Source of the DNA: Citrus sinensis
Taxonomy: Eukaryota; Streptophyta; Magnoliopsida; Sapindales; Rutaceae
NCBI RefSeq assembly: GCF_022201045.2
Contig: NC_068561.1
Location: 24,992,501-25,056,500, forward strand
Reading direction: 5' to 3'
Length of the DNA stretch: 64,000 nt
Below are positions 32,445 through 58,899 of this stretch, piece after piece. How positions within the stretch are numbered: position 1 is the first letter of the stretch; each line of letters begins with the position of its first letter. The position numbers and the translations under genes are program-made. The notes beneath the pieces were generated by a model. That model made no database searches and had not been told where the DNA came from. It worked only from the letters and a program-made list of their open reading frames with translations.

Positions 32445-35400
32445 ATGGATAGCAAGGCTGAAACTATGGAGGCAGTGTTGAAGGAAGCTGTAGATTTGGT
32501 ACTGCAAACAGAGCAACCCAGCTCGTTTTATTATTTCCTTTCTGTTGCTGTTTTTTTTTTTTTTTGTGTTTTTGAGAGTTTTGCTTTCTGGGTATTTGGT
32601 TTTGTGGTGAATTTTTTGAGCTTTTGATTTCAGGAAAACGTGCCTATGGAAGAGGTTTTTGAGACTTTGAGGTGCAATAAAGAGGGTCTTTCCACCGAGG
32701 CTGCTGAGGAGAGGCTGACCATTTTTGGCTATAACAAACTTGAGGAGAAACAGGTGCTGTTACTTGATCAATTTGTTATTTCCATTTTAAGAGTTTATTT
32801 TTTGGAAAAGAAAAGGAAAAAAAATTTATGTGTAAAGAGTTCATATTTTATGAATTCTTGAAAATAGAAACCTTGGAATTAAATTTATCCTTTATTATTT
32901 GAAATTCAGCTGTGAAAAAAGGAAACAAATGAAGTGAAGTTAAACGTTGGGTGATTTGTAAGCTTATTTATTTATTTTTTTGCAGGAAAGTAAAATTTTG
33001 AAGTTTTTGGGGTTTATGTGGAACCCTCTCTCATGGGTTATGGAAGCTGCAGCTATCATGGCTATTGCACTTGCCAATGGAGGAGTGAGTATTAAATTTT
33101 TGTATTTCCATTTATTGGAAGGCTTACTGCTTTCAGATAACTATAATTCAGGCTTATTACTTTTCTTTTGATACTTTTTTATTTTTTTATTTTCTCTTCC
33201 ACGTATAATCTCACAGTTGGGAACCTCATTTGTAGGGTAAACCTCCTGACTGGCAAGATTTTGTTGGTATCATAACCCTGCTTCTTATCAACTCAACAAT
33301 CAGTTTCATAGAGGAGAACAATGCGGGTAATGCTGCTGCAGCTCTCATGGCTAGTCTTGCTCCTAAATCTAAGGTACTGAATAGATTTTAATATGATCTT
33401 TTAAGCATTGCCTTGAATTGTTTTAAATTCTACGAGTTTTTGTATTTTGAGTTTGATATAATGGTTGGATTATGTATTCTAGTTCTGTAAGTTCATGTTA
33501 TCTTGCTTGAGAATATTTTAGGTCCTTCGAGATGGGAAATGGATGGAGGAGGATGCAGCCATTCTTGTTCCTGGTGATATCATCAGTGTTAAGCTTGGTG
33601 ACATTATTCCTGCAGATGCTCGTCTCCTTGAAGGTGATCCATTGAAAATTGATCAGGTGCTTTTGCAAACCTTGCATTTTTGTAGTCGAAATCAAATTGA
33701 TTTGTTAAGTTGAGCAGTTTATTCAAGTTTTTCCAATTTTTATGTTGCAGTCTGCTCTCACAGGAGAGTCTCTTCCTGTGACAAAGGGTCCCGGTGACAG
33801 TGTATATTCAGGCTCTACGTGCAAACAGGGGGAGATTGAAGCTGTGGTTATTGCCACCGGTGTTCATACCTTCTTTGGCAAAGCTGCTCACCTTGTGGAT
33901 TCCACGAATCAACAAGGCCACTTTCAAAAGGTAAGAAAAAGCAAATGTACATTGCTTCTGTTCTAAACTAAAACTATCTGAAAGAAAAGGGAGACAGATT
34001 GCTAGATGATTATCATCTGATTGATATTTTTATAACCTACACCATGTTTCAAGTTTTCTTTTATCTTTTAATTCGTATTAGCATTCACCAAATCCTTTCT
34101 TTTGGCTTTGTTCATAGGTGTTAACTGCTATTGGGAATTTCTGTATATGTTCAATTGCGGTGGGGATGATAGTAGAGATCATTGTCATGTACCCGATTCA
34201 GCACAGGAAATACCGCCCGGGAATTGATAATTTACTTGTGCTCCTGATTGGAGGAATTCCCATTGCCATGCCTACAGTTTTATCAGTGACAATGGCAATT
34301 GGTTCCCATCGCTTGTCGCTGCAGGTTTGTCATAGTTGTTGTTACAATGCTGCTACTTTATAGTCATTGGTCGATGGTTGTCAGCATATATGGGCTGTTT
34401 ACTGCAGGGAGCCATCACAAAGAGAATGACAGCAATAGAAGAAATGGCAGGCATGGATGTACTTTGTAGTGACAAAACTGGAACTCTAACTTTGAACAAA
34501 CTATCTGTTGACAAGAATCTAATTGAGGTTTGTACAAGATATGCTGCACTTTATGGGGATCGATTTTCGCTTTCGAATTGTAGTTTGTTTCAACATTTGG
34601 CCTGCATTATTTGTTTAGATCTTTGCTAAAGGAGTAGATGCAGACGCTGTTGTTCTGATGGCAGCTCGAGCCTCCCGAGTGGAAAACCAGGATGCAATAG
34701 ATGCTGCTATTGTGGGAATGCTGGCTGATCCCAAGGAGGTATTCTGTTTAATCTATTTAAGCTCAGTTGCTGCTGCTGAACTTTTGCATCAGCAAAGGCA
34801 ACTTTGAGAGTACCAGGATTTTTCTTCAGTTTAACATTTTGTTCTTCGTAACTCTTTGACATTGGTTTCTTTGCTTTTGATGACAACAGGCACGGGCTAA
34901 TATCCAGGAAGTTCACTTCCTACCATTTAACCCAACAGATAAGCGAACAGCCCTCACATATATTGACAGTGAAGGAAAAATGCATCGGGTCAGCAAAGGT
35001 GCTCCGGAGCAGGTATGACAGTCATCATCTAATTGCGTATTTAATGGTTCTGGAATAGTCTTTTATACAATTTTTCTTTCTAATTTGACTTTCAGATTTT
35101 AAATCTTGTGCTCAACAAATCAGAGATAGAACGCAGAGTTCATGCCATAATCGATAAGTTTGCAGAGCGAGGATTACGCTCTCTTGCAGTTGCATACCAG
35201 GTATATGATATACCCGTGTTGTTGTGATGGGTCCTATTTTCAAGTCAGTTCATCTATTTATTACTTTTATTGTATTTCATGTTAGCATAGCCTATATTTA
35301 TTAGTTTGTTTTCAGGAAGTTCCTGATGGAAGAAAGGAGAGCTCAGGAGGCCCATGGCAATTTATTGGACTAATGCCTTTGTTTGATCCACCTAGACATG

Positions 35401-38400
35401 ATAGTGCAGAAACAATACGAAGGGCATTAAATCTTGGGGTGAATGTGAAAATGATCACAGGTTCTTCTTCTATCTGTTGTATTATGTCATTTTGTTTTGT
35501 ACACTATATTCAGTCAGTGCTTGGGCACATTTTGTATATTGAGAATTTGGAGTGTTCCTGTTTGCTTAATCATTCTGTCAGTAAATTCTTATGGATGAGA
35601 AGGAATTTAAATGCTCCATTCACATTTCCCTTATGTAGTATATTTAGTTTGTCTGTTTCTTCAGCATTATGATAAGTATTCCATCTGTTTTGACATTTTC
35701 CACTTTTAAGGTGATCAACTTGCAATTGCAAAGGAAACGGGACGTCGTCTTGGAATGGGAACCAACATGTATCCTTCATCAGCCTTATTGGGACAGAACA
35801 AGGATGAGTCAATAGTCGCTTTGCCAGTTGATGAGCTGATCGAGAAGGCTGATGGGTTTGCGGGTGTTTTCCCTGGTAAGAAGCTAGATCTCCTAATTTA
35901 CACCAAGCAGTCATCAATATATGGCTGATCATGAAGCCGCTGATCAATATATTATGTTATAGTTGATACATTCGTAAAGAAACTGCAGCCTTTTTTTTTT
36001 TTGACCTTTTGACTCACTATATCTCTTCTCATTTCTTGGGTCATTTGACTGTCCTTATGTTGATTACAGAACACAAATATGAAATTGTGAAACGTTTGCA
36101 AGCTAGGAAACATATATGTGGAATGACTGGTGATGGAGTCAATGATGCTCCTGCTCTTAAGAAAGCAGACATTGGCATAGCTGTTGCTGATGCAACTGAT
36201 GCTGCTCGTAGTGCCTCAGACATTGTCTTGACGGAACCTGGCCTTAGTGTTATCATTAGTGCTGTTCTAACTAGTCGGGCAATATTCCAGAGGATGAAAA
36301 ATTACACGGTGAGTATTTGTATTGATCATGCACATGCCTAATGTATGAACACTCTCTAATAATTAAATTTAGCATACTTAAACTGAAACTACTGGAGTTC
36401 AGAATGTGGCGTTTAAGCTTTTTTGGGGATCAGGCATTCTACTCCGCTTGCAGTGCCTGGTGGTGGAGAAAAAACTTGCTTGAGATTCAAACAGCATGCA
36501 ATGAGTCTGTGCATTGGTTATTGTACTTTGGCCCAAGAAAGCTTGAGTTTAGCTGTGTCTAGTAGCCCTTCCCATCGTCTCTGACAGAGTGCTAATTTTA
36601 ACAAGACTTGGAACATTATTTACTTGAATTAATTGATTTCTTTATTGTTCTTTCCCCCCTTTTTGATGCTTCAGTGATTTCGTTCTTGTTGCAGATATAT
36701 GCAGTATCTATTACCATCCGTATTGTGGTAAGTATTTTGCTTTTGGTTTGAGATACTGTACAGAACAACATTGTTTGATTTAATTGATTATTGCTACTTT
36801 TCCACAATAATTATAGCTTGGAATTTATGAAATTGATAGTCTTCCACAAAAGTAGCTTGTATATCTTAACTTGGTGTACTGAACTATTTCTCTTGGTGAC
36901 AGCTTGGTTTCATGCTGCTGGCTCTCATTTGGCAGTTTGACTTCCCACCCTTCATGGTGCTGATAATTGCTATTCTTAATGATGGTTTGTATTGCTCTTT
37001 CTTTTTTTTTTGTGTGTGTGTGTGTATGTCTCCCCACTGACCCCCCAAAATGTGGTTGGTTCTCTGTATGAAGAATTTATTACTTTATCCTGGTTCCATG
37101 TGTCGAGTTTGTTTTGTCTTTATCCTGAATAGATGGTTCCTTGTCTGTTCTTCCTTCAAAATACCTGAACTGCCAGGTACCATTATGACAATATCGAAAG
37201 ATAGAGTGAAACCATCTCCTCTGCCAGACAGCTGGAAATTGGCTGAGATCTTTACAACTGGAGTCATTCTTGGTGGTTATTTAGCAATGATGACAGTGAT
37301 TTTCTTCTGGGCTGCGTACCGGACAGATTTCTTCCCAGTAAGAAAATTTACCTTTGTATTATCATGTCACCAAAATCCTGTGTTATGTATGCTCATGATG
37401 ATTGATGTGATGTAATGATCTTGTTTACTAATATTCACGGAGTAATATTTGCTTTTATGCACTTAAAAACATGTGAAAATGTATGTCTTTCCTTAAATCT
37501 TGTATCCAGTAACTGGAGACTAAAACTTGGTTTGCAATATTCAGCGTACATTTGGTGTTTCGAGTCTTCATGAAAAGGATATAGATGACTGGAAAAAGCT
37601 TGCCTCAGCAATATACCTGCAAGTGAGTACCATTAGTCAGGCCCTCATATTCGTGACCCGTGCTAGGAGTTGGTCTTTTGTTGACCGTCCTGGCCTGTTA
37701 CTTGTTCTGGCTTTCGCTGTTGCTCAGCTGGTGAGTGATGCTGATTTCTTTCTGCATTTCTTTGCATGTTCCTTCTGAATATATGAGAATACTTACTGTT
37801 TTTTATTCCGTGAACAGATTGCTACTCTGATTGCTGTCTATGCGAACTGGAGCTTTGCTGAAATTGAAGGAGTTGGATGGGGTTGGGCTGGTGTGGTCTG
37901 GCTTTACAATCTCATCTTCTACATCCCACTTGATTTTATTAAGTTCTTCATCCGATATGCTTTGAGCGGGAAGGCGTGGGATCTTGTCATTGAGCAAAGG
38001 GTACATATAGCTCTTGTTCTAATTGTTCAGTAGAGTTGATTCAAGCTGTGGATCCTCTTCTTGCTCACTCTCAATGCTGTGCTTGCTATTCTTGCAGATT
38101 GCCTTCACAAGGAAGAAGGATTTTGGTAAAGAAGAACGTGAGCTTAAATGGGCACATGCACAGAGAACCCTCCACGGGTTACACGCACCTGATACAAAGA
38201 TGTTCAGTGAACACAACAAGTTCACAGAACTCAACCAGATGGCTGAAGAGGCAAAACGAAGAGCTGAGATTGCAAGGTAAACCTATAAAGAGAACAAGCA
38301 CGATACTTAAATTTGTTGCAATGCAGAGTTATTCTAATACATGATGCTCTTATATATTTTGAATCTTGCAGATTGAGAGAACTGAGTACTCTGAAAGGGC

Positions 38401-38468
38401 ATGTTGAATCAGTGGTTAGGCTGAAAGGTCTGGATATCGACACGATTCAGCAATCTTATACCGTCTGA
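32445..38468 (+). CDS. AHA11: Plasma-membrane H+-ATPase (P3A P-type, AHA4/AHA11 group)
   Basis: Twenty-one exons: 32445-32498, 32634-32753, 32986-33084, 33236-33373, 33522-33656, 33751-33930, 34118-34324, 34408-34527, 34619-34738, 34890-35012, 35096-35200, 35316-35460, 35711-35875, 36070-36308, 36695-36727, 36903-36984, 37177-37337, 37545-37730, 37818-38000, 38098-38276, 38372-38468. Product 956 aa, the usual length. It pumps protons out of the cell at the cost of ATP, energising the plasma membrane. Visible marks: actuator TGES (186-189), phosphorylated Asp in CSDKTGT (D333), hinge TGDGVNDAP (590-598), ten hydrophobic segments, and a C-terminal autoinhibitory R-domain ending in YTV, whose penultimate Thr (T955) is the 14-3-3 docking phosphosite in this family. 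The segment normally written HRLSQQ reads HRLSLQ here. The paralogue assignment is by resemblance and is not certain. Confidence 0.96.
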
Positions 38469-39509
38469 TAGAGATCATACATGAACATGGAAACATATGT
38501 TATAGTTGAGAACTGATATTAAAGCCACATAAATTATCATCCTAATGTATAAACCTTTAGTCCACCTGTATTTATTATATCACCACCCTTTGCAGTTTGT
38601 TTGTCTTGTATTTCCTTTCTTCTTTTTTGTTTCCCCTCCCTCTCGTTATTTTTTCCCCCTCTTCAGTTCCCTTCTTGCCCTCATCTTATTTTCTTATTCC
38701 ATCTGAATATCAGTTTCCGAAAATGCTGGATTTGCGTTATTGGGTGCAATGATTAGAAGAGGCAAAGGCAATTTTCGATTGGGGTACGATATTTTCCGAA
38801 GGTTGAAATTCGTTCATTGTACATGCAAGAAAGAGATTGATAGATTTTGTGTAGCCTAGATTTTTGGGTATTGAGGAGAATTGTTTAATTTAAACGTACA
38901 TTACCAATGCTTTAAACGTGGGCCACGGTTGTTTAAAACATGAGATATTTAATTAATCTATATTCCGTGAGGACAAATAAAAATAAAAATTAATTGCTCT
39001 AGCAAACATACATAGATTATAAGAAGAGTGATGGCGATTTTAATTCATTAGTCGAATAAAAATATAAAATAATAAAAATAAATATATTGGTTAAAAAATA
39101 TTTAATTTAATTAATTTTATCATGCTACGTCAGTTTGTATAAAATAAATTTATATAAAAATTTATAATTATATCATTATTCTTACAAAAATTATAGGACA
39201 GATAACTAAGAAAAGAATTTCTTAGAAGAAAATGGAAATTAGAATGACAATTCATGATTCTAAAAATCTTCGGCAAACCAATGCGTATAAGACTGTTTCT
39301 CCATAGAGGATGAATGCCCTATTTTGGTGAGAACTTAGAACCCGTCGACGGCCACCAAAAAGCAAAATTGAAAATAGAAAAAGAAATACCCTCCAGTTGG
39401 CCCCCATAAATTTACGGAAATTGCAAGGTGAGATAAACATGAGAAACTGAAGATAAAATAGGAAATATATAATATGATAGATTCATTGAAAGAGAATTTA
39501 TTATTACAT
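38469..39509. other. Convergent 3' spacer between H+-ATPase (+) and thioredoxin (-)
   Basis: Contains the H+-ATPase 3' UTR and, at its right side, probably the thioredoxin 3' end. AT-rich; no gene seen. Confidence 0.6.
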
Positions 39510-39650
39510 AAAGATGAAGATCAGTCTATTGCGCATCGAAAATACAAAAAAGCGAAACATATATAAGAGAGAGAACATGAGCGAGCAATCAGTCGGGGCT
39601 TATGGCAGCCGGTCTGTCTGCCACTGCTGAGCTCTGTGTTTCTCAATTTT
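39510..39650 (-). repeat. Inverted repeat, left arm (end of thioredoxin exon 3 plus 3' flank)
   Basis: 141 bp covering the last 16 codons and stop of the thioredoxin gene (39600-39650) and 90 bp of 3' sequence. It is the reverse complement of 40211-40386 with two mismatches (39610, 39634) and a 35-nt segment present only in the other arm. Confidence 0.95.
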
Positions 39651-40595
39651 CTTCAAAAGCTCATCCTTTCGAGCACCAATCACCCTCTCAACTTCCTTCC
39701 CTCCCTTCACCAACACAAACGTAGGCATTGCCTGCACCTGAAACTCTTGCGCCACATCCTAAAAATATCACAACATCCCACGACCACCCAAAAAAAAAAA
39801 AAAAAAAAAAAGAGAGAGAGATCGTGAGATATAATATTTGTTACATATCCCGAATGTTTTGTCATAACTCTTTTTTTTTTTCCCAATAATTCTAATAATA
39901 ACAGACGTCGTGTGTGTTAGTTTAAGTCTGATGTTTGAATCCCGTTCACGCGGAGAGCATATATATATTTAATTTAATTTAATTAAAAAAGGGGAAAAGG
40001 AGAGAAGAGAGAACATACAGACAACTCATCAACATCAATCTTGACGAATTGGACATCGGAGTAGGTCGAAGCCATCTTACGCAGTTCCGGTTCCATGATC
40101 TTGCAGGGCCCACACCACGACGCCGCAAAATCTATCACCATCTATATTTTCATTGAACAAAACTGAATTTCAGTTTTTAAATCGAAGATCCCAACCAAAA
40201 AAAAAAAAAAAAAATTGAGAAACACGGAGCTCAGCAGTGGCAGACAGACCAGCTGCCATAAGCCCCGACTGATTGCTCGCTCATGTTCTCTCTCTTATAT
40301 ATGTTTCGCTTTTTTGTATTTTCAATTGGGAAAATTGACTTTGATCAATTCTCATGATGATGCGCAATAGACTGATCTTCATCTTTAGTCAAGAAAATTG
40401 AACGAACTGGGTACTGATTATATTGTATTTGTATGATTACTGTACCAATTGGGAAGAAGTTTTGCAGGAATCGAAATGGAGCTGCCATCTGGCGGACGAG
40501 TGAAACGACATAACGTTGGTAGCAGATTCTGAGTGGGGTGAATCTTGGCCGTCGAATCCTCCGGCCCCAAAAATGTTTGAAAGAATACCCCCCAT
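39600..40595 (-). CDS. TRXH2: Thioredoxin h, subgroup h2
   Basis: Three exons on the minus strand: 40595-40446, 40141-40019, 39758-39600, giving 143 aa with phase-0 junctions. The start MGGILS fits an N-myristoylation signal (Gly2, Ser6), as known for h2/h9-type thioredoxins with N-terminal extensions. The redox site WCGPCK is at 59-64, the cis-proline loop AMPTF at 101-105, and DVDEL at the end of exon 2. It reduces target disulfides, presumably with electrons from NADPH-thioredoxin reductase, in the cytosol or at membranes. Intron 1 (40445-40142) is unusual: it contains an inverted copy of the end of exon 3 and its 3' flank. The coding sequence itself is intact. Confidence 0.93.
40211..40386 (+). 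repeat. Inverted repeat, right arm, inside thioredoxin intron 1
   Basis: Reading on the plus strand, it begins with a copy of the last 16 thioredoxin codons and stop ([16 protein letters not shown]), then the 3' flank, interrupted by 35 extra bases (40324-40358), and ends matching 39510. An A-run directly precedes it (about 40197-40214). It is antisense to the thioredoxin gene that hosts it. Confidence 0.95.
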
Positions 40596-41101
40596 CTTTA
40601 AACAAGAACAAGCCGAGACGACGCAATAGTATTGGATTCGTTTACAAAAGGGGGATTATGAAGAAGAATAATAAGAAGAAGACGACGAAGAAGTGGAGTC
40701 CTAACTTTGGTCTCATCCTTAGACACAAAGGGTCCATTTTATACTTTGCGTGAACTTACCTCTCTCCTTCTCGGGGAGAAGTTCTTGAAGTGAGATAATA
40801 TACAGTAGTAAACTATTATTTTTTATTTTTTTATTTTATTTAAATTAACATTATTTATCTTCATAATTTTTATGAATTTTTTTCATATAAAAACATCAAA
40901 AATTATAATAAAATTAATTAACATATATAATATAAAATATTAACAAATGGTACTTAATTCAATATAATTTATGTTATAATAATTTATTATTTTATTTATA
41001 TTTTTTAAAATATTTATTATTTGTTTACTATTATAATTATTTGAGGGAAAAATAAGAAAGGCAATAGAGCGCCACGTGTCAACCAATAAAATGATTTCAG
41101 T

Positions 41102-41310
41102 ATAATTTGGGGTACCCCGTATAATTAGAGGTACCTCGCACAAATAGAGGTACCCCGCACAAATAGAGGTACCCCACACAAATAGAGGTACCCTGCACAA
41201 TTAGAGGTACCTCACGTAAATAGAGATACCCCGCATAATAGGAGGTACCCCAAAGAAATAGGGGTATCTCGCATAATAAAGGGTACTCCACGTAACTCGA
41301 GGTACCCGGC
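41102..41310. repeat. 19-bp minisatellite, 11 units
   Basis: Eleven consecutive 19-bp units, most with a GGTACC or near-GGTACC core (for example ACAAATAGAGGTACCCCGC). A single similar motif recurs at about 41977-41990, at the far side of the LTR-like region. Confidence 0.9.
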
Positions 41311-41660
41311 AAAGCGGATGCAAGAGAATCCTCTGAAAATATCCGCCATGAGAAATGTCTCAGCCTCCTAAAAGATATTATTCGATTTTGTCAGAAATAG
41401 GAATAAAAAACGACGTCCTAAAAGGAGGGATAGCCACCTGAGACCTCTGCCAAAAGTGAAGGACGCTGTCCCAAGGACAGTGGTCCCCAACCGCCTACCC
41501 AACAACTACTGCAGAAGTACCCCAGACCACTCTCCAGTGCGCGCCACGTTTCCAAAAGATGAGATACGCCGCGAACATACACATAACGGCCCCAAAAGTC
41601 ATAAAAACGGTAAAATGACGTTAGCCAAAAAGGGTACGCCACGTGGCAGCTAAAGTACTC

Positions 41661-41672
41661 CATATATAAAGG
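41661..41672 (+). promoter_or_regulatory. TATA box in LTR-like sequence
   Basis: CATATATAAAGG, 21 bases after a GGTACGCCACGTGG segment (G-box-like CACGTG core). It could promote plus-strand transcription toward the 3' end of NDUFAF7. Confidence 0.4.
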
Positions 41673-42059
41673 CGCCTAAGTTTCATTCTCCATGAGGCTC
41701 TTATTGACCCAAAAACACTCACACTCCAAAAAAGAAGTTCTCTTCAACCTTAAACCCTAATTTATAGAGGGTTAGTCAGCTCTCTTTACCATAAAAGCTT
41801 GAGTTTGCTAACTTGAGCGCCGGAGTGTGAACACCGGGGTATCCCGACTTCACCTCTAACCTCTATTTTACTATTCTGTAGGCGTGAAGCTCATTTTGAA
41901 TGACACATCTCTCGTCTCTCTTTCCCTTTCTCACCTCCCCTAAATTTCAGATACACCGCACCGCACACAATAAACTAGTGAGGTACCCCGTCTTTCCCAA
42001 AAATATAAATTTATTATTCAAGATAGATTTTTGATTTCCCTACCCCAAAATCTATTGAA

Positions 42060-42252
42060 AACAATAATTTATAAGAGTATAAATATAAAAATATTAATTT
42101 TTAAATTTTTTAAATTAAAAAAAATAAATAACTTAATATTTATTTTTAACTATTTAAATAAAAAAATAATTATGTTATTTATATTTAAATATTAAATTTT
42201 ATTTAAAATTCAGACTAATTAAGATTTATTCAGATTAAAAAAAAAACCCACC
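42060..42252. mobile_element. MITE fragment related to the element at 669-1288
   Basis: Ends with ATTCAGACTAATT, TTATTCAGATT, an A-run and CCCACC, followed by TAA, matching the right-end layout of the 669-1288 MITE. The left end is not identifiable, so it may be truncated. Confidence 0.45.
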
Positions 42253-55668: not shown

Positions 55669-58600
55669 ATGGGTTTGAGTCCTGAGTCTGTAAAAGTGAA
55701 GAATTGGGAAGTGAATAATAGTGATAATAATAATAATAGTAAATCAAGGAAGGTAAAGAAGAAGAAAGATGGAGGAGCTGAACAAGAAGAAGAAGAAGAA
55801 ATTGGATGTTGGGTTAGGTTCAGGTTTATTGAAAGTTGCATGCCTTCAAGATCAAAAGTTGACAGTTCCATGAGTGGTACAAGTACTAATTATGGTAATT
55901 CTTTTTGTTTTCTTTTCTTAAGTCATTATTTTTTTTATGAGTTTTATTTTCACAGAACTGTTAAAGTTTACAACCTTATGTGTGAATTTAATTTCTTTCT
56001 ATATTTATCATCTTCGGGTTTCCATCTAAGCAAAGTGAAGATACATAATTTTTTTTTCCCTTTAAAGTGATATATCAGCATCATTAGTCGAAGGGATATG
56101 TTTTGCATGAGGTTGAGGATATGTAAAAGTCTCTTGTTTCGTTTTTGAGAAAGGATAGGAGCTGTGTGAAATTTGTTCATTTAATGGGATTGTCTATAAT
56201 CACTTAGTAAGTATGTGTCGATTTGTTTTTATTGGGTATGCTAAGCTTTGTGTGAGGTTTCACCTAATAACTTGCTCAGTTTGATTATCTTGCCAAAATT
56301 GAACATTGAAGCATGAGCATTCATAGCGATTTTCCTTAGGTTGGGAGAAAATAAATGTGTTAATATGGAGGTATTGTGATTGTAACTGCATTTGGATATC
56401 ATTGCATGATTATTGTTTACCTCTTTTGATATGTGTATGATTTGTAATTTTTGGGTCTATCAGCAGATGGTAAATCCTCAAATGAGAAAAGAAGAGATCG
56501 ACCAGTTGTTCCTGTGTCCTCTACGACAACAAGTAATGCAGAAAGTGCTTCATCAACTCCGAAATTCAGTGAGGAGTTGAAGGTTGCTTCTCAGCTTCGG
56601 AAGTTCATGTTCAATGATCTTAAGCTAGCGACGAGGAATTTCAGGCCTGAGAGTCTTCTCGGTGAGGGTGGGTTTGGTTGTGTCTTCAAAGGTTGGGTTG
56701 AAGAGAATGGAACTGCTCCAGTGAAACCCGGTACTGGGCTTACTGTTGCAGTTAAAACCTTAAATCATGATGGACTTCAGGGACATAAAGAGTGGCTGGT
56801 ATGAACGTTAAATTTTCTTCCTCTTCATTTTATTGACTGTAGGGACCACACTTTGGTGCTTTTGCTTACAAATTTATTGAAATCTTTCTCTTTCCTCTTT
56901 AAATCTCAGGCGGAAGTTAATTTCCTTGGCAACCTCCTCCATCCCAATTTGGTTAAATTGGTTGGGTACTGCATCGAAGATGATCAAAGGCTGCTGGTAT
57001 ATGAGTTTATGCCTCGAGGGAGTTTGGAAAACCACCTCTTCAGAAGTATGTGACTAATCATTGATTACTCTTCTTAAGTGTGCTGTTATGTTTCATTAAT
57101 GTGATTTCTTAGTCAGAGAATTGTTGTTACTTCAATGTTCAATTATGAACCGTGGCTAATTACTTTTCCTGAATGTGTGAGATGGAGAGTTCAAGCTACC
57201 CCATGTTTTCTTAGGTTGTAGAGGGGTATCTAGCATTAGCTTCCGTAGTGAAAACATACTGTTAAAAATTAGCTTATATATTAATCGAAATTTCCTGGTT
57301 TCAAATTGCAGCATCTTATAGATGATGGAGAGAAAATGAAGGATAAATTTGATGCAATATGTACCATGTGCTTTTCTGCGTTAAACCCTATGAATTGTAT
57401 ATCTTCCATGTAGATAAGCATTACAACCTAATCTGAGAGGGTTGCTACTGATTATAAGCAATAGCATGCTTGATATGCTTGATACGAGCAATAGCCATTA
57501 GGACTCAAAAGTAATATCTATTAATTGAAAGCAATAGTTTGCTTAATCACACTTGTTGCTCTGGCCAAATGCAGGTTGCAGTTCCATCTAATGTGAAACA
57601 TTGATATTTACTAAGATTGATTATTGTGCCGCATTTGAGTTGGGGCAGAACTCTTCTTTCTGATTTTGTTAATAGGTTTTCTGTGTGACATTTAGGTACA
57701 ACCATTAGAATTGCTCTATCAAGAAGAATTTCCTACTAGCTTTGTACAAACTGCAATTCACAACCTGTTTTAAACCTCAAGAGAAAGTTTTAGGTTTTAG
57801 ATTGACTTAGCTATTTCTTTTTGATTATTATGCCATTATGGAATTGTGTTTTTGACATTTTCTACTTGCATAATTGTATTTTAATGTTCTCTGGTGACAA
57901 CCATGTTATATGCAGAAGGGTCCTTGCCACTTCCATGGTCTATCAGAATGAAGATTGCACTTGGTGCTGCTAAGGGTCTTGCCTTTCTTCATGAAGAAGC
58001 TGAAAAACCTGTGATATATCGTGATTTTAAAACATCAAATATTTTATTAGATGCGGTATGTGACACACATCCAGCACAATAACTATATTCTGTCAGACAA
58101 TCTATTCCCTTATTTTCTAAAATGGTTTAAACATTTTAGGATTACAATGCCAAACTCTCTGATTTTGGACTTGCCAAAGACGCCCCAGAGGATGGTAAAA
58201 CACATGTATCTACTCGAGTAATGGGAACGTATGGATATGCTGCTCCAGAGTATGTGATGACTGGTAAGCATAAAAAATACTTCTTATGTCATTTATGTTA
58301 TTTAATAATTACTACCCCGTGTAGAAATCACACCAGTGATCACTGGGTTGTAACTTAAGTCTAAAATGCTTCTTGTGGATTTAGGACATTTGACATCAAA
58401 GAGTGATGTCTATAGCTTTGGAGTAGTTTTACTTGAAATGTTGACTGGACGAAGATCCATGGATAAAAACCGACCAAATGGGGAACACAACCTTGTGGAA
58501 TGGGCAAGACCGCATCTTGGGGACAAGAGAAGGTTCTATCGGTTGTTGGACCCTCGCCTTGAAGGTCACTTTTCAATCAAAGGTTCTCAGAAAGCAACCC

Positions 58601-58899
58601 AGCTGGCTGCCCAATGCCTTAGCCGTGACCCCAAAGCCAGACCACGGATGAGTGAGGTTGTTGAAACTTTGAAGCCTTTGCAAAACCTCAAGGACATGGC
58701 TAGCTCCTCCTATTACTTCCAAACCATGCAGGCAGATAATACCTGGTCCATCCGAAATTCTAAAAACGGCATCAGAACACAGGGAGGATTCATGACAAGG
58801 AATGGACAACCCTTAAGGACCTTATCGCATCCAAATGGTCCACATGCTTCTCCATATCGCCATCCTCAACAGTCACCAAAACCGAATGGAAAACAATAA
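55669..58899 (+). CDS. PBL34: Receptor-like cytoplasmic kinase, RLCK-VII (PBL34/35/36 group)
   Basis: Six exons: 55669-55894, 56464-56798, 56910-57045, 57916-58055, 58140-58263, 58385-58899, giving 491 aa. The N-terminus starts MGL and has an Asn run and an acidic Glu run, then a Cys/Arg patch ([18 protein letters not shown]) that may be acylated. Kinase domain at about 135-415: glycine loop GEGGFG (142-147), catalytic Lys K173 in [12 protein letters not shown] (D269; an Arg-Asp kinase), DFG (287-289), [14 protein letters not shown] activation segment. The Pro/His/Ser-rich tail is probably disordered. PBL kinases relay signals from surface receptor complexes; PBL34-36 are reported in lipopolysaccharide and chitin responses. 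The three paralogues cannot be separated here. Exon 2 has a NAGNAG acceptor. Confidence 0.95.
56461..56466 (+). promoter_or_regulatory. NAGNAG tandem splice acceptor of kinase exon 2
   Basis: TATCAGCAG: splicing after the first AG gives ...YADGK, after the second ...YDGK. Both keep frame, so the two proteins would differ by one Ala before the kinase domain. Confidence 0.6.

Follow-up and report, generated by a model that had tools for sequence, protein, structure and literature searches.

We analysed a 64,000-nucleotide stretch of Citrus sinensis DNA, referred to here as the window, which carries on its minus strand a thioredoxin h2-like gene with a coding span at 39600..40595. The coding sequence is divided into three exons (40595-40446, 40141-40019 and 39758-39600) that join into an open frame of 143 amino acids with a WCGPC active site. 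Intron 1 (40142..40445, minus strand) is 304 nt long and intron 2 (39759..40018, minus strand) is 260 nt; both are of the GT-AG type. The translation matches the Pfam family PF00085 Thioredoxin with an E value of 7.3e-29, and the best solved relative is 6x0b, Thioredoxin H, aligned over residues 1-134. At the C-terminal end of this alignment the KKIEKHRA of the Citrus protein lies against KKILKHRE in 6x0b. The product begins with an MGxxLS extension, a myristoylation-type feature, and the alignment to 6x0b starts at residue 1. The subgroup number h2 is our assumption, from this start and from similarity. A sequence-only reading had proposed a thioredoxin h2-like gene with three exons, and the reading of the frame and exons, the Pfam match and the alignment to 6x0b uphold both the identity and the structure.

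The gene still looks intact from its sequence, with an open frame, GT-AG introns and a poly(A) signal that falls outside the predicted stem described below. This signal, an AATAAA at 39497..39502 on the minus strand, is likely to be the near-upstream polyadenylation element and sits just beyond the duplicated segment.

Nine extra residues, QQWQTDRLP (39603-39629), extend beyond the last residues aligned to 6x0b. This tail was absent from all five paralogous loci read (L029-L033). L029 stops one residue past the matching arginines and L031 and L032 are short-ended, while L030 and L033 carry different C-terminal tails of about ten residues each. It is possible that a stop codon was lost prior to the duplication. 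L029 (C4:27463500-27467500) is a diverged thioredoxin with a similar three-exon layout, an MGANVSS start, AWCGPC at the active site and a KRRN end.

An inverted copy of the 3' end within intron 1

The inverted repeat in this thioredoxin gene is real and confirmed. Its 3' arm (39509..39653, minus strand), which we identify below as the source, comprises the last 17 codons, the stop codon and 91 nt of 3' flank, and ends just before TGTAATAATAAA. The intronic arm (40208..40387, plus strand) is a copy of this 3' end, inverted with respect to the gene, and consists of 145 homologous nucleotides and a 35-nt stretch. The two arms align in one block of 116 columns (39538-39653 with 40208-40323) and a second of 29 columns that is identical (39509-39537 with 40359-40387). 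Overall 142 of the 145 columns match, with two internal mismatches and one more at the edge of an A-run. Between the blocks, in the intronic arm only, lies the 35-nt stretch (40324..40358, unstranded), which folds as a small hairpin and contains AAAATTGA at 40331. The spacer between the arms is 554 bp and takes in the acceptor of intron 1, the whole of exon 2 and intron 2, and the first part of exon 3. This alignment agrees, to within a few bases, with the coordinates and counts first given for an inverted copy of the gene's 3' end in intron 1.

Without the insert, intron 1 would measure about 124 nt. The corresponding intron of L029 is about 95 nt, as judged by eye from the reading frames, which agrees with this estimate, and a BLAST scan for inverted pairs found no repeat of this kind at L029.

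The arms appear to be unique to this gene. We searched the genome (299,734,781 bases in 11 contigs) with a program that skips very common words, and the inverted match was recovered with an E value of 1.3e-48 for a 119-nt block, which excludes a chance origin. The query 39500-40400 gave nine matches, including the locus itself and arm against arm, together with three short ones involving the A/GA-rich portion of intron 2 and a single one with the active-site exon of a different thioredoxin gene, located on C4. The query 40300-40450, which includes the 35-nt stretch, returned the locus itself alone, and a source for the stretch was not found. Neither search found further copies of the arms, which match each other alone; the arms are therefore not a dispersed repeat. 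A transposon-borne inverted repeat, such as a MITE or Pack-MULE, was dropped since dispersed arm copies were not found in these genome searches.

Within the window, BLAST found no other inverted pair of at least 60 nt and at least 90% identity within 5 kb, and a repeat finder with a 40-nt limit added a single inverted pair, formed by AT repeats. Inverted pairs were compared across the window and 33 loci, 168,776 bases in all with overlaps counted. The pair was present at 7 of the 33 loci, all of which overlap the thioredoxin locus, and at none of the other 26, some of which overlap one another. An Rfam search of 38500-42000 at the gathering threshold gave no matches.

Long-read libraries can contain palindromic chimaeras, and this known behaviour is what could favour an assembly or library artefact. 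We consider such an artefact very improbable here, since palindromic chimaeras would not be expected to show two internal substitutions, a 35-nt stretch confined to one arm and a 554 bp spacer. The mismatches and the one-arm stretch together argue against a simple palindromic assembly chimaera.

Origin and age of the intronic copy

As read from the sequence, the 3' end of the gene must be the source, at least for the coding part of the copy, because the codons in the copied segment specify the conserved C-terminal end of thioredoxins. For the same reason, copying in the other direction, from the intron to the 3' end, was rejected for the coding part. An arginine common to the gene and 6x0b would be glycine in the intronic copy, and this conserved arginine sets the polarity of one internal change as A to G. 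Deamination of methylcytosine was considered for the mismatches and dropped, since two changes give too small a sample and one of these internal changes runs from A to G in the intronic copy.

The junctions of the copy point to how it may have arisen. At the edge of the source lies an 11-mer, AAGAAAATTGA (39643..39653, minus strand), made up of the codons for K, K and I and the first two bases of that for E in exon 3. The same 11-mer recurs at 40391..40401 on the plus strand, 3 nt past the far junction of the copy, and is likely to be the microhomology used in the insertion. Across the whole window, both strands counted, AAGAAAATTGA has only these two sites, which lie about 740 bp apart. It appeared in none of 20000 dinucleotide shuffles of the 58-nt flank, a test chosen after the sequence had been seen. 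Its 8-nt core, AAAATTGA, is weaker evidence than AAGAAAATTGA, being present in 147 of 20000 flank shuffles. Counting both strands, the window has 17 sites for this core; four of them are at the source, on the two sides of the copy and in the 35-nt stretch, and another is at 39364, near the gene's 3' end.

The occurrence of AAGAAAATTGA at the edge of the source as well as beyond the far junction argues for a microhomology-guided templated insertion. The sequence points to a template switch or Pol-theta-type repair as the candidate mechanisms. We consider it probable that a recent local insertion of this type took place in intron 1 and left a young, nearly neutral inverted scar. While intron 1 was being replicated, or a break in it repaired, a DNA end with an (AAG)AAAATTGA-like sequence would have annealed to the identical sequence where the gene's own terminal segment begins, on the opposite strand. 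This end would have copied some 145 nt of the 3' end and then been rejoined in the intron, giving the inverted copy. The insertion may have proceeded in several steps, and the 35-nt stretch could stem from the same multi-step event or from a later change. A one-step model does not fit exactly, because three unexplained bases (GTC) precede the 11-mer at the far junction and an A-run replaces the full 11-mer at the near junction.

The A-run (40197..40214, plus strand) shares its last AAAA with the source (GAAGAAAATTGAG). It adjoins the copy, which could suggest that a fragment of mRNA was retrotransposed and inserted antisense into intron 1. The copied segment lies entirely within exon 3 and the 3' flank, so the missing introns do not count against such an origin. 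However, the A-run stands at the 5', or coding, end of the sense copy, the wrong side for a poly(A) tail, and the 3' end of the sense copy runs CTTTA-GTCAAG with no poly(A) tail there. The AAAA common with the source also accounts for the near junction. We rejected retrotransposition on the side of the A-run and regard it as scarcely credible. The original proposal had been an insertion assisted by either repair or retrotransposition; the 11-mer favours the repair half, and the A-run ahead of the sense copy's coding end tells against the other.

A local inverted duplication within one gene belongs with known local templated insertions. The Citrus insert is longer than typical fillers at double-strand breaks, on the scale generally associated with them, and fillers are usually accompanied by a flanking deletion. 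A copy of about 145 nt is also long for known short-range switches, which counts against the templated insertion that we prefer. In the portions of the literature drawn on here, the copied length in great-ape switches has a median of 12 and a maximum of 128 nt (PMC7954356), whereas the Citrus copy is about 145 nt, has its arms 554 bp apart and comes from a plant. Inverted insertions in yeast are described as mostly about 5-34 bp (PMC11724301). The likeness to short-range template-switch mutations lies in the single-event, reverse-complement copying of a nearby segment and in the capacity to form an RNA stem (PMC8794818, PMC7954356); RNA hairpins have been proposed to arise by template switching (PMC8794818). 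Templated insertions bearing microhomology at Arabidopsis breaks have been attributed to polymerase theta, or suggested to depend on it (PMC5217109, PMC10923293), and a figure legend in the second of these sources codes fillers as forward or reverse complement. With these plant fillers the Citrus case shares microhomology-primed copying of nearby sequence, sometimes as the reverse complement, and iterative rounds (PMC5217109, PMC10923293). Among the matches listed in the literature searched, this thioredoxin case was not found.

The copy appears to be young. With two substitutions in 145 columns, and assuming substitution rates between 1.3e-8 and 1.5e-9 per site per year, the central ages are 0.53 to 4.6 Myr, and the 95% limits over the whole rate range are 0.06 to 16.6 Myr; any gene conversion between the two arms could bias these estimates towards too recent a date. 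The suggestion of a recent event is upheld by these two internal mismatches, with wide limits on the date.

A predicted hairpin and its possible effects

We modelled an unspliced transcript of 1191 nt running from 40660 to 39470, with assumed ends, using thermodynamic folding that ignores proteins and the order of transcription. In the minimum free energy structure the 3' arm is paired with the intronic arm at 143 of its 144 bases, and the ensemble contains 142.5 pairs between the arms. The minimum free energy was -474.9 kcal/mol, compared with -249.5 kcal/mol when the intronic arm was left out. Forty versions in which the arm was shuffled gave a mean of -300.9 (SD 4.4, lowest -312.5). The 35-nt stretch forms a small side hairpin in this fold, and the loop contains the intron 1 acceptor, exon 2 and intron 2 with both of its splice sites. 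The near-complete pairing in the modelled transcript bears out the earlier prediction that the primary transcript could form a stem of about 140 bp with these same elements enclosed in it.

The spliced mRNA retains one arm. Excision of intron 1 should strip the antisense arm from most transcripts, and since this separates the arms most messages should be normal. The likeliest outcome would be a young and nearly neutral scar that leaves room for hairpin siRNAs. Transcripts that keep intron 1 until 3'-end formation could fold into a stem of about 143 bp, from which Dicer-like enzymes could cut siRNAs.

It is conceivable, though unlikely in our view, that the hairpin is a working self-silencer. 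The siRNAs made from unspliced transcripts would then hit the 3' end of the gene's own mRNA or direct DNA methylation of the locus, and expression would depend on the splicing efficiency of intron 1. The near-perfect stem predicted in silico is consistent with this possibility. Introns often remain in chromatin-bound plant RNA (PMC8063115); in the part of that study used here, median intron retention in soybean chromatin-bound RNA was close to 0.25 in the apex and above 0.25 in the leaf, which makes some transcripts with both arms plausible. Inverted endogenous plant genes can also yield siRNAs, and those from VIM4-VIM2 in the Arabidopsis accession Cvi are described as acting in cis and in trans (PMC13213937). 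Both cases have inverted gene sequence able to make double-stranded RNA from its own locus, but VIM4-VIM2 consists of two facing genes with measured siRNAs, whereas in Citrus 145 nt are inverted within one gene known from its sequence (PMC13213937). Against a self-silencer, both arms coexist solely until intron 1 leaves.

The stem could instead alter RNA processing through skipping of exon 2, a circle of exon 2, retention of intron 1 or masking of the 3'-end signal. The contents of the loop, with the intron 1 acceptor, exon 2 and both intron 2 splice sites, would suit such effects. However, the downstream arm is exonic, in exon 3, unlike the usual circle-promoting pairs, which lie in introns, and the AATAAA at 39497-39502 is outside the stem. 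Skipping of exon 2 would keep the frame and lose the active site, because the exon is 123 nt long and encodes WCGPC; this too weighs against altered processing, which we regard as quite improbable.

We also give little credence to a further reading, that a splicing-gated self-silencer was gained in a single mutational step, as a proto-small-RNA locus that has not yet departed from its source gene. Intron 1 would carry 145 nt of antisense to the stop codon and 3' UTR of the same gene. Unspliced transcripts would serve as siRNA precursors, and excised introns would release antisense against the mature mRNA. If this were true, thioredoxin output would be tied to splicing efficiency.

The local inverted duplication matches what the inverted-duplication model, as presented in PMC3237417, takes as raw material for small-RNA genes. 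The likeness to the MIRNA model of Allen et al. (via PMC3237417) lies in an inverted gene segment that could form a long near-perfect hairpin and matches its source gene. In Citrus, unlike in the model as related there, the arms lie in one gene, in intron 1 and the terminal exon, are separated by splicing and are known here from sequence alone (PMC3237417). This layout is attractive for a test, yet in itself it is an ordinary mutation. If the arms yield small RNAs, the locus would be a single-gene example of the first step in the inverted-duplication route to regulatory small RNAs; as source and copy share one transcription unit, alleles that carry or lack the insert could then be compared to see what a single mutation does. 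If they do not, it would indicate tolerance of a near-perfect stem, about 140 bp long, that spans an intron and the terminal exon, presumably since one arm is lost on splicing.

Neighbouring features

A convergent gene lies on the plus strand and was read over 35000-38468; its frame closes with YTV, some 1.1 kb from the stop codon of the thioredoxin gene. We take it to resemble a plasma-membrane proton ATPase from its motifs; a Pfam search with one of its exons gave matches to haloacid-dehalogenase-like hydrolase only. Read-through from this gene would give antisense RNA over both arms.

On the other side of the thioredoxin gene, about 440 bp upstream of its start codon, is a repeat of about 1 kb (41037-42072) with an internal 19-bp tandem repeat. 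This is the sole copy in the window. Full-length dispersed copies share about 82-85% identity, and several are paired about 11-12 kb apart; the number of copies is a lower bound because 40 of 461 candidates were scored. From its sequence the element looks like a solo LTR. Elsewhere on the plus strand the window contains a DUF569-associated ubiquitin-like domain at 1756-2220 and a protein kinase exon at 58366-58896.
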